From positions 124,001 through 188,000 of the forward strand of contig JAUQPE010000029.1 in the NCBI GenBank assembly GCA_030550515.1: a stretch of DNA of 64,000 nt. Direction: 5' to 3'. The notes under the pieces are model-generated. The model was not told where the DNA came from. It searched no databases and worked only from the letters and a program-made list of their open reading frames with translations. Source of the stretch: Thermotogota bacterium. GTDB lineage: Bacteria; Thermotogota; Thermotogae; Thermotogales; Thermotogaceae. The position numbers were made by a program, and so were the translations under genes. Positions 3,036 to 44,126 of this stretch are shown here, piece by piece; position 1 is the stretch's first letter; every line of letters starts with the position of its first letter.

Positions 3036-3617
3036 ATGTTGATAAGAACCGTTGAACTCGTGAAAGTGACCACGCAACCAGGTGATTACCCTCCTCCCTT
3101 AAAAGGGGAAGTGGCGTTCGCCGGTAGGTCCAACGTGGGAAAATCTTCCCTTCTGAATCGACTCTTCAACAGAAAAATAGCTTACGTGAGCAAAAACCCA
3201 GGGAAGACCAGGTCCATAAACTTTTACCTTGTGAACTCGGAGTTCTACTTCGTGGACCTACCAGGTTACGGTTACGCCAAGGTTTCGAAGGCGGAAAGAA
3301 TTCACTGGAAGAAGCTTGTTGAAGACTATTTCGAGAACAGGTGGTCCTTACAGATGGTCTTCTTACTCGTGGACGGAAGGATACCACCTCAAGAGAACGA
3401 CTTGATGATGGTAGAGTGGCTGAAAGAGCTGCGGATTCCTTTCACCATACTTCTTACGAAGATGGACAAGGTGAAACCTTCGGACAGGAAGAAGGTGTTG
3501 GACGAACGTAAAAGGGTGTTCGAAGAGTACGGGGAGTACACGATCATACCCACCTCAGCCATCACAGGTGAAGGAATTGACAAAGTCTTGGATTTGATTT
3601 TCACACTTTTCAGGTGA
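3036..3617 (+). CDS. engB: Ribosome biogenesis GTPase EngB/YsxC
   Basis: GTPase needed for late 50S subunit assembly. The 193-aa protein has the family order: [14 protein letters not shown] (G1), [11 protein letters not shown] (G2), [12 protein letters not shown] (G3), LLTKMDKV (G4) and [10 protein letters not shown] (G5). The Shine-Dalgarno GGGAGGGGTG lies 6 bases before ATG. It is the first plus-strand gene after cobO. The end of its coding region contains the -35 of the next promoter (3594-3599), so the downstream peptide/HD-GYP unit can be transcribed separately. Confidence 0.96.
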
Positions 3618-3623
3618 TAAAAT
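3594..3623 (+). promoter_or_regulatory. Sigma-A promoter for the peptide/HD-GYP unit
   Basis: TTGATT (3594-3599), an 18-base spacer and TAAAAT (3618-3623) preceded by TG, an extended -10 (TGATAAAAT). The same TGATAAAAT block is used in the lysine riboswitch promoter at 44146-44174. It overlaps the engB stop codon. Transcription would begin near 3630, at the left arm of the inverted repeat. Confidence 0.6.
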
Positions 3624-3627
3624 CAGC

Positions 3628-3871
3628 GGTAAGGGGGCAAGGGGTGAACTCTATCAAAGCGAAGACTCGCTAAATGTTGTGGTGAGCGGAGATTTGGCAG
3701 CGAGCGGAGCCTTGAGATTCAGCAATGAAAAGGGGGGGAAATTATGAAAAAGATCCTCAGAATGATCCTTGTGCTTGGAAGCCTCTTCGGAGCTTTGATA
3801 GCAATGGTAGGAAGCAACAAAGTTTGGTAACCTTATCAACGAATCGTCCACCCTTGCCCCCTACCCCTTAC
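3628..3871. repeat. 240-base segment bounded by imperfect inverted repeats
   Basis: The left arm (3629-3646, GTAAGGGGGCAAGGGGTG) and the right arm (3849-3871, CACCCTTGCCCCC then TACCCCTTAC) are reverse complements over about 17-18 positions, apart from a 5-base insertion. Between them lie a small hairpin (AGCGA/TCGCT, 3658-3671), a duplicated GAGCGGAG and the 28-codon gene. The arms could close a long RNA stem ending just before the ribosome site of the HD-GYP gene, or could be terminal repeats of a small MITE-like element. Only one copy is present in this window. Confidence 0.6.
3744..3830 (+). CDS. 28-residue hydrophobic, signal-peptide-like protein, unknown
   Basis: ATG preceded by a very strong AGGGGGGG ribosome site at a good distance, then 28 codons and TAA. 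The product starts with two lysines (MKKILRM), has a hydrophobic stretch of about 15 residues containing SLFGALIAMVG, and ends SNKVW. It looks like a secretion signal followed by only five or six residues, as in short exported signalling peptides, or like a tiny membrane protein. No Cys suggests a thiolactone. It is read from its own promoter at 3594-3623 and lies 57 bases before the membrane HD-GYP gene. I do not recognise a family; function unknown. Being a chance frame is the main alternative, but the ribosome site argues against that. Confidence 0.5.
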   Translation: MKKILRMILVLGSLFGALIAMVGSNKVW

Positions 3872-3887
3872 AGAAGGAGAGAATGTT

Positions 3888-5171
3888 ATGGTTGTAAAAC
3901 ATAAAGAAGAGAAAGCGTTCTTTGTTTACTCCTCAATTCTTCTTTCAGTCTTTTTGTTTCTCATGATTAAGGATATGAGAGCCATTCTCACTCTAAATCT
4001 AAATCTTTTCCTCACACTTTTCTTAATAGATCTTTTGTTTGAATGGATTGAAATTCCCGCATATAAATTCAACAGAGGTTATGTGGCCACATCCGCAGGT
4101 TTCATTGTCAACACCCTCATAGCTGCCATTCTGAATCCAGTTGAAGCTTCCTTGATAAACGCCTCCGTAGCGATAATACCGAAACTCACAAAAGCCTTTT
4201 TTGGGGAGAGAAGTCCGTTCAGTCGGTACGTCTTCAATTTCGCTCAGATAGGTTTAAGTTCGTACCTTACAAGTTTTCTGTTTCACTCTCTAGAAAATGA
4301 AAACTATTTGTTGAACATTTTTGTGATCCTCCTCTGTGGTCTTGTTTTTTTCATTCTGAACAACTTCTTCATGATAATTGCAATATACATTTTATCCGGA
4401 ACAGATGTTCAAGAATTAATTTCCAAAGTCATCTCCGGTCCCGTCCTTGGTTCTGCTCTTCTGATTCCTGTCATTGCGGTAATCTACATCCTCTACGTTT
4501 ACATGGGGTTCATAGCTATCCCGGTGTCCTTGGCGGTTGTCTTTTCAATCCAAGTCGGAAACTTTTACAGGTACAAGTACTACGAAGCGAAACTCGAACA
4601 CTTGAAGCTTCTGGTGAAGAGCCTAGAAGAAAAGGACGAGTACACGAGGGGACACAGTGAGAGGGTAGCTGAGCTGGCGAAAAAGATCGCCAAAAGGTTG
4701 AAACTCTCCCCTAGATTGGTGGACAGAATATACAACGCCGCCCTCCTTCACGACGTTGGGAAGATAGGTATACCAGACCACATCTTGAAGAAACCTTCTA
4801 GCCTCTCAAAAGAAGAGATATCGATCGTCAAGACGCACCCCGAAAAAGGTGAAGAGATTCTGAAAGAGGTTGACATATTCAGAAACCGTGAAAGCAGATG
4901 GGTGAGACACCATCACGAGAGGTGGGATGGGAAAGGTTACCCCGACGGTTTGAAGGGGGAAGAGATCCCTCTTCCGTCTCGGATAATAGCCGTTGCGGAC
5001 GTTTACGAAGCTTTGAGGAGCAACAGACCTTACCGGAAAGCCCTCTCACACGACGAAGCCAAAAGGATCCTGATGAACGAAATGAAAGGGACAGTTTTGG
5101 ATCCCAGATTGGTGGATATCCTCTTAGAAATCGTTGAAGAAGAGATGAGACCGGAGGAAGTGAGAGTGTGA
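3888..5171 (+). CDS. Membrane sensor with HD-GYP cyclic-di-GMP phosphodiesterase domain
   Basis: 427 aa. Residues about 10-225 are strongly hydrophobic with six to eight membrane segments and no recognisable extracytoplasmic domain, like a MASE-type sensor. A short linker (YRYKYYEAKLEHLKLLVKSLEEKD) leads to a complete HD-GYP domain: H256, HD at 288-289 in LLHDVGKIGIPD, H317 in KTHPEKG, HHH at 341-343 and GKGYPDGLKGEEIP at 348-361. HD-GYP proteins hydrolyse c-di-GMP. GC content changes inside the gene: sampled 60-base lines in the membrane half are 30-35% GC, the HD-GYP half about 50%. Preceded by the 28-aa peptide gene; its stop overlaps the next start (GTGA). The ligand is unknown. Confidence 0.9.
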   Translation: MVVKHKEEKAFFVYSSILLSVFLFLMIKDMRAILTLNLNLFLTLFLIDLLFEWIEIPAYKFNRGYVATSAGFIVNTLIAAILNPVEASLINASVAIIPKLTKAFFGERSPFSRYVFNFAQIGLSSYLTSFLFHSLENENYLLNIFVILLCGLVFFILNNFFMIIAIYILSGTDVQELISKVISGPVLGSALLIPVIAVIYILYVYMGFIAIPVSLAVVFSIQVGNFYRYKYYEAKLEHLKLLVKSLEEKDEYTRGHSERVAELAKKIAKRLKLSPRLVDRIYNAALLHDVGKIGIPDHILKKPSSLSKEEISIVKTHPEKGEEILKEVDIFRNRESRWVRHHHERWDGKGYPDGLKGEEIPLPSRIIAVADVYEALRSNRPYRKALSHDEAKRILMNEMKGTVLDPRLVDILLEIVEEEMRPEEVRV

Positions 5172-5674
5172 TCGTTGAGGTCTTTTTGATAGGTCTCTTC
5201 CTTTCCTTGCTTCTCAGAAACCTCTGGAACGTGCTCAAATATGAGTACAAGATGCTTTACCTTTTCCCAATACCATTTCTCCTACAAGTTCTGCCCTGGG
5301 AGAGGATCCTTGTGCCCTTGTCTTTTTTTCTGTTGTTCTTCATCTGCTACGCGAACAGGAAATTGCCGGGTTTCAAGTTGATGGCGATAGGTGCGGTGAT
5401 GAACGGTTTCGCGATGTCCGTGAATGGTGGAAAAATGCCGGTTTGGCAACCCGTGCTCGAGGCTTTGAGAATGGATCTCGATTTCAAACACACGGTTTTC
5501 CAGGAGTTCTCTTGGAGAACCTTCTTGGCTGACTACATCCCCGTCTCCTTCCCATGGGGTAGGAGGTTCATCATCAGCATAGGTGACGTACTCATCTTCA
5601 TCGGTATCATCCTGTTTTTCGTTCTAAAACCTCGACACCAAAGCCAACGGTTTCAGGTCCGACGTGAGTCGTGA
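5168..5674 (+). CDS. DUF5317 family membrane protein
   Basis: 168 aa with four or five predicted membrane helices and the NGFAMSVNGGKMPVWQP segment that I associate with DUF5317 (asparagine, Gly-Gly-Lys/Arg-Met-Pro). Starts at GTG overlapping the HD-GYP stop by 4 bases, so it is co-translated with the phosphodiesterase and may work with it in the membrane. No biochemical role is known to me. The last 68 bases overlap the 3' end of convergent degV, so the two mRNAs are complementary there. Confidence 0.75.
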   Translation: MIVEVFLIGLFLSLLLRNLWNVLKYEYKMLYLFPIPFLLQVLPWERILVPLSFFLLFFICYANRKLPGFKLMAIGAVMNGFAMSVNGGKMPVWQPVLEALRMDLDFKHTVFQEFSWRTFLADYIPVSFPWGRRFIISIGDVLIFIGIILFFVLKPRHQSQRFQVRRES

Positions 5675-43946: not shown

Positions 43947-44126
43947 GACCCGACCGGCTCTCCACGGAGAGTCTTCTCCGTGACAGTGGTATGGGTGTTC
44001 CCCATACCCCCAGGCGTGTGGAACGGGAGGAATTCCACACCCTTCGGCGCCCTCGCCTTTCAGCTATCCCCGATTCCTCCCGTGATGGGATAGCTTACTC
44101 ATCTCGGGCGCGCCTCCGTTCGGGTC
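43947..44126 (-). promoter_or_regulatory. Lysine riboswitch (L-box) aptamer
   Basis: The 180-nt RNA matches the crystallised T. maritima lysine riboswitch from memory: GGAGGCGCGCCCGAGATGAG at the 5' side, the AGGCGAGGGCGCCGAAGG core, a long GC-rich arm, GGGGGTATGGGGAACACCCATACCACTGTCACGGAG and the closing GAGAGCCGGTCGGGTC. P1 forms between the GACCCGA at 44120-44126 and TCGGGTC at 43947-43953. Bound lysine should stabilise P1 and allow the downstream terminator to form, shutting off the whole lysine operon. This RNA and its expression platform account for the 331 bases between pyrBI and asd. Confidence 0.96.

Follow-up and report, generated by a model that had tools for sequence, protein, structure and literature searches.

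A short peptide gene family beside membrane HD-GYP genes: a candidate peptide-sensing c-di-GMP module in Thermotogota and other bacterial phyla

What is the role of a gene of 28 codons that lies directly upstream of the gene for a membrane-bound HD-GYP protein? The question arose from an earlier note on a stretch of 64,000 nucleotides (the window) of a Thermotogota bacterium (GenBank assembly GCA_030550515.1, contig JAUQPE010000029.1, positions 124,001 to 188,000, forward strand). The best reading of the comparative data is that the locus encodes a secreted or tethered peptide ligand for a membrane-bound c-di-GMP phosphodiesterase, which would read it with a DUF5317 protein as accessory. The locus is laid out as follows.

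3594-3623, forward strand: predicted extended -10 promoter (TTGATT, 18 nt, TAAAAT with TG) that overlaps the last part of engB
3633-3643, forward strand: left arm of a long-range RNA helix, GGGGGCAAGGG, close to the predicted transcript start
3659-3670, forward strand: small hairpin GCGA-AGAC-TCGC, from sequence reading
3684-3691 and 3702-3709, forward strand: two copies of GAGCGGAG, from sequence reading
3732-3738, forward strand: G-rich Shine-Dalgarno sequence of the peptide gene, kept in relatives
3744-3830, forward strand: peptide gene of 28 codons, ATG at 3744 to stop at 3830, from profile matches and an in-frame pN/pS of 0.27
3851-3861, forward strand: right arm, CCCTTGCCCCC, which pairs with the left arm GGGGGCAAGGG
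3888-5171, forward strand: MASE9 + HD-GYP gene, a predicted c-di-GMP phosphodiesterase with a polytopic, possibly S-component-like sensor
5168-5674, forward strand: gene of a DUF5317 membrane protein, overlapping the stop of the HD-GYP gene; candidate accessory or processing factor

All parts of this layout that had been claimed in the earlier note were recovered: the extended -10 promoter, a predicted RNA start near the left arm, a right arm ahead of the HD-GYP gene, the small hairpin and the duplicated element between the arms, and the 28-codon gene with its strong ribosome site. The promoter search gave one match where 0.3 was expected from shuffled sequences, and the TAAAAT at the engB stop is kept in 8 of 8 leaders of the window's own family (f1). 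The peptide translates as MKKILRMILVLGSLFGALIAMVGSNKVW, with the leader part MKKILRMILVLGSLFGALIAMVG and the tail SNKVW, and within the window genome the matches to the peptide profile are confined to this locus.

A sensor-domain search over 103 Thermotogota genomes was used to locate HD-GYP loci, and at nearly every one of these a peptide of 25-35 residues was found directly 5' of the HD-GYP gene. The profile built from these peptides (A1) matched in 44 of the 103 genomes, MASE9 in 42 and DUF5317 in 42. The peptide was present in 41 of the 42 genomes with MASE9; in the remaining one (G101) the contig extends just 97 bases further upstream. Three genomes had a peptide match and no MASE9. In one of them (G065) the contig ends just past the peptide; the matches in the other two (G054 and G055), which covered positions 1-20 only, lay inside longer frames and were gone with a wider profile, are probably spurious. 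One scan of contigs for DUF5317 reached six Thermotogota loci only. Within a second family (f2) the DUF5317 gene is sited elsewhere in the genome and is still present in most members; at two loci (L123 and L124) it lies beside a pantothenate synthetase-like gene and not beside the HD-GYP gene.

Genomes outside the Thermotogota were picked by their match to DUF5317 and showed the same gene order, with peptides such as MKAKVLKALFVLASLLLAGGAHFRW, MKMKKLIARVLVLLGSLIALGLAAGAGFHWK and MNKWGVYVVRLALALTTLASLLVAGGAAGKWG. The phylum of genome G121 was inferred, by way of the control genome Thermus composti, to comprise relatives of Thermus. There, 47 loci were read and 43 had a peptide 5' of the HD-GYP gene, so placed ahead of every intact HD-GYP gene; the other four were L134 (no adjacent HD-GYP gene), L137 (assembly gap) and L149 and L176 (HD-GYP gene disrupted at its 5' end). 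At L112 and L114, also from Thermus relatives, an operon that by sight resembles pilMNO follows a few genes after the cassette, a neighbourhood that suggests a link to type IV pili. A wider, pan-family profile (A7) matched 51 of 390 genomes, almost all of which were carriers known beforehand. The new match in G203, a genome without a DUF5317 match, has the peptide directly 5' of a membrane HD-GYP gene and is an out-of-sample success for the profile. A match in G246 was rejected, being a long frame with no adjacent HD-GYP gene, and at L218 (G148) an orphan peptide, MIKILAILASCITLLLAGGANLKWW, has no HD-GYP gene alongside. The search for the peptide next to other HD-GYP genes that the earlier note had suggested was thus productive within the Thermotogota and beyond. 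Judged from these distributions, the 28-residue peptide represents a real gene family that spans several bacterial phyla and nearly always adjoins the gene of a membrane c-di-GMP-degrading enzyme; it is unannotated, and searches of Pfam and NCBIfam gave no family match.

The pattern of substitutions indicates that the coding sequence is under purifying selection (pN/pS 0.18-0.28). For family f1 the ratio was 0.27 in frame and rose to 0.59 and 2.49 when the frame was shifted, for family f2 it was 0.18, and for the leader part in the Thermus-like and Meiothermus-like groups 0.27-0.28. The likeness to a bare secretion signal with a short tail, noted before for the single peptide, holds across the family: a conserved, signal-peptide-like leader is followed by a variable tail of five residues, usually xxxWx. 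Mean entropy of the leader was 0.30 bits in the Thermus-like and 0.47 bits in the Meiothermus-like group, against 1.63 and 2.09 bits for the tail minus its Trp, and this Trp was invariant (40 of 40 in the two groups together). Among 25 diverse peptides, the position just before the last five residues was A or G in every one, and that at -3 was small or aliphatic in 24, the exception being the Met of the window peptide; the pattern agrees with a signal peptidase site ahead of a pentapeptide. A longer tail (NLTFWPARKGG) occurs in some peptides of the Thermosipho type, and one family member (L144) has a tail that lacks the Trp (GANFDP).

Several genomes carry the peptide gene in tandem. Three copies at L016 each end in LVGNVTWW, two at L019 in LVGSITWW and two at L021 in AVGNLEWW. 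The leaders of these copies are strongly divergent and the tails they share are spelled with different synonymous codons, so that the identity of the tails within a genome reflects selection and not recent duplication. The tail would thus behave like a ligand, constant within a genome and variable between genomes.

The putative receptor is the product of the adjacent gene. The protein encoded at 3888-5171 matches MASE9 (PF20972) with an E-value of 3.1e-45 and 155 bits (cut-off 24.3) and HD_5 with 139 bits (cut-off 27.2). The residues characteristic of HD-GYP proteins (H256, H288-D289, H317, H342-H343, D371 and G350-Y351-P352) are invariant, and with the metal and GYP motif residues intact the phosphodiesterase is predicted to be active. 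An AlphaFold2 model of the protein (mean pLDDT 92.9) matches HD-GYP domains. In Foldseek comparisons the membrane part of the model resembles the S-components of ECF vitamin transporters, with probabilities up to 1.00 and a target TM mostly of 0.5-0.65 at weak E-values (0.14-1.2). S-components take their ligands from outside, and the likeness therefore suits a receptor role for MASE9. The third gene, at 5168-5674, matches DUF5317 (PF17248) with an E-value of 6.5e-27 and 94.8 bits (cut-off 25), and its model showed no fold match in the PDB. A relation of DUF5317 to the lipoprotein signal peptidase LspA was considered on the basis of a D...SIGD likeness seen by eye; given an hhalign probability of 0.15 (108 against 31 sequences) and the lack of a PDB match, it is just a lead.

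The sensor evolves much faster than the HD-GYP domain to which it is fused. Among Thermotoga-like genomes, mean identity was 66.5% for the MASE9 part, 87.9% for its own HD-GYP domain, 88.9% for EngB and 84.3% for DUF5317. L003 and L004 have the tail ANKIW in common and sensors that are 93% identical, whereas the tails of L003 and L006 differ and their sensors are 82% identical, at 99% identity of the HD-GYP domain. A partial Mantel analysis of 40 Thermus relatives gave a correlation between tail and sensor, given the HD domain, of r=0.26 (p=0.0003), and values of 0.32 and 0.28 were obtained within the two main groups (p 0.0002-0.016 over these correlations). The correlations of tail with DUF5317 given the HD domain, and of tail with the HD domain given the sensor, were nil in the same 40 genomes. 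Given the HD domain, the leader part was correlated with DUF5317 in both groups (r=0.18, p=0.019 and r=0.67, p=0.0003).

At the level of single residues, one sensor position stood out. Among Thermus-like loci, all 8 with a tail ending in WE have Arg in column 80 (numbered after the window protein), and 13 of the 14 with a tail ending in WK, WR or WQ have Glu there. Over phylogenetically independent pairs, the charges of column 80 and tail end changed in opposite directions in 8 pairs and together in 1 (p=0.02, sign test), a figure to be read with the fact that the column was chosen after inspecting all columns. Column 80 tops 638 columns, the next being 109, 108, 28, 60 and 107, all within the sensor; outside the Thermus-like group alone, column 80 is not among the columns most anticorrelated in charge. 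For tail positions 1 and 3, the covariation over all Thermus relatives was no stronger with sensor columns than with HD columns, which makes these single-column pairs only suggestive. L142 and L143 have HD domains that are 96% identical, sensors that are only 56% identical and the tails SAEWR and GVDWG, a contrast that has the appearance of a switch in specificity. Part of the distance correlations could be due to peptide and sensor segments being exchanged together; the charge swap at column 80 is harder to explain by such block exchange. Two properties that serve to recognize peptide pheromones were found at these loci, namely a precursor gene of their own whose mature part is under selection and, by comparison of sequences only, a receptor specificity that coevolves with the peptide. 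That the last five residues evolve in step with the sensor of the enzyme suggests a previously undescribed peptide-signalling system.

The RNA upstream of the HD-GYP gene has features of its own. In an alignment of eight Thermotogaceae leaders (the window and seven relatives), 96.6% of the cells of the arm helix were paired, and the compensatory changes in relatives that the earlier note had proposed to look for occurred at 3 of the 11 pairs, with a covariation score matched in 0 of 500 shuffles. The fold of the whole leader is mildly better than that of shuffles (z -1.64), its energy being unremarkable. At L010-L017 (family f2 minus L018) an unrelated helix, TGCCGGGG/CCCCGGCA, occupies both arm positions, so that long-range pairing is kept with a changed sequence. 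AGCG[G/A]AG repeats also occur in the leaders of relatives (2-3 copies, L010-L018), with a further single copy between the peptide and the HD-GYP gene in family f2, and may be a protein or ribosome site. No RNA family was matched at the locus in a search of Rfam; elsewhere in the window a lysine riboswitch (RF00168, 110 bits) lies at 43947-44126 on the reverse strand. Searching the genome for further copies of the leader DNA returned a single copy, which excludes the MITE-like element that had also been suggested. The idea of a structured leader RNA stands insofar as the helix covaries in family f1; since its sequence is not common to other lineages, it stands outside the system's core, and the helix is real but secondary.

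The reading that we consider probable is that of a peptide-sensing c-di-GMP module. The precursor would insert as a signal peptide, N-in/C-out, leaving the five C-terminal residues (SNKVW here, xxxWx in most relatives) outside the membrane. The tail would probably be freed after the conserved G or A, by signal peptidase or with help of DUF5317, and would dock in an outward-facing MASE9 pocket of the neighbouring protein; docking would alter the phosphodiesterase activity of the HD-GYP domain and hence c-di-GMP, and the tail may serve as a population signal. The comparative data show a conserved coding family, a constant linkage to the sensor-enzyme, a tail that behaves as the selected unit and coevolution of tail and sensor, and at this level co-occurrence, coding selection, concerted tandem tails and coevolution give strong support to the proposal of the earlier note that the neighbouring membrane sensor reads a signal-peptide-like product. 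Coevolution fits a freed and a tethered peptide alike and does not separate them. The peptide might be a permanent, uncleaved single-span subunit (microprotein) of the MASE9-HD-GYP protein, with the tail as a tethered regulator in the sensor pocket. Size and N-in/C-out shape suit small single-span subunits in general, the linkage between the two genes is constant, and the distance of the leader part also tracks the sensor given the HD domain in Thermus-like genomes (r 0.38, p 0.0003). We nevertheless regard such a subunit as unlikely: tandem copies keep identical tails on strongly different leaders, one with a shortened hydrophobic stretch, so that the hydrophobic part looks generic, and the residues at the junction resemble those of signal peptidase sites. 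Divergent tandem leaders and junction together favour release of the tail over tethering.

Control of the HD-GYP gene by a structured leader RNA or a translated attenuator, with an idle peptide product, would be in line with the three compensatory pairs of the long-range helix and with the different helix at the same place in family f2; selection on the amino acids, conservation across phyla and coevolution of tail and sensor are not expected from it, and it seems very improbable. Scarcely credible is the view that the ORF arose by chance or encodes a hydrophobic peptide akin to type I toxins. Its product is indeed short and hydrophobic; what speaks against this view is that the polar tail is conserved, the partner genes are constant, the tail coevolves with the sensor and no known RNA family is matched at the locus. 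Returning to the peptide-sensing module, an extended form of it is put forward tentatively as a possibility: linear pentapeptide pheromones (xxxWx), in multiple phyla, would derive from bare signal peptides, possibly be freed by DUF5317 and be read by a c-di-GMP phosphodiesterase through its fused, S-component-like receptor, giving direct cell-cell signalling with species-specific pherotypes.

The Agr and ComX systems are known examples of peptide pheromones whose membrane receptors diversify. AgrD-AgrC and ComX-ComP likewise combine a small precursor gene with a neighbouring polytopic membrane receptor, and a variable signal with a fast-evolving sensor on a conserved signalling domain (pherotype-like). 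Their output is a histidine kinase, whereas that of the MASE9 locus is a c-di-GMP phosphodiesterase, and the latter has no adjacent AgrB or ComQ gene, no Cys and an apparently unmodified tail. Membership of these families was rejected, as the peptide matches no AgrD, ComX or lactone autoinducer model and lacks Cys. Enterococcal sex pheromones and inhibitor peptides and the Phr/RRNPP peptides are also short, linear and derived from the C-terminus of signal-peptide-like precursors, but they are imported and have cytoplasmic receptors, whereas the partner here is a membrane enzyme. In the DSF-RpfC/RpfG system a signal likewise controls an HD-GYP phosphodiesterase, but the signal is a fatty acid and the sensor kinase is separate, instead of a peptide and one fused receptor-enzyme. 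The ECF S-components (BioY, FolT, ThiT, RibU) may share the predicted fold of MASE9, which in contrast is not a transporter, is fused to HD-GYP and has low sequence identity to them. A literature search, with most subscription papers outside its scope, gave nothing on the peptide, on MASE9 ligands or on DUF5317, and neither Pfam, NCBIfam nor the literature searched yielded a c-di-GMP phosphodiesterase that reads a peptide directly.

Few cell-cell signals are known from deep-branching thermophiles; Thermotoga maritima reportedly shows a peptide-driven, density-dependent formation of polysaccharide that involves a different locus. The paired charge swap between tail end and column 80 is open to direct genetic and biochemical testing, for which pentapeptides are cheap. 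If true, the proposed reading would supply a ligand for the orphan c-di-GMP sensor domain MASE9, a partner for DUF5317, a family of unknown function, and a peptide-signalling system in deep-branching thermophiles.
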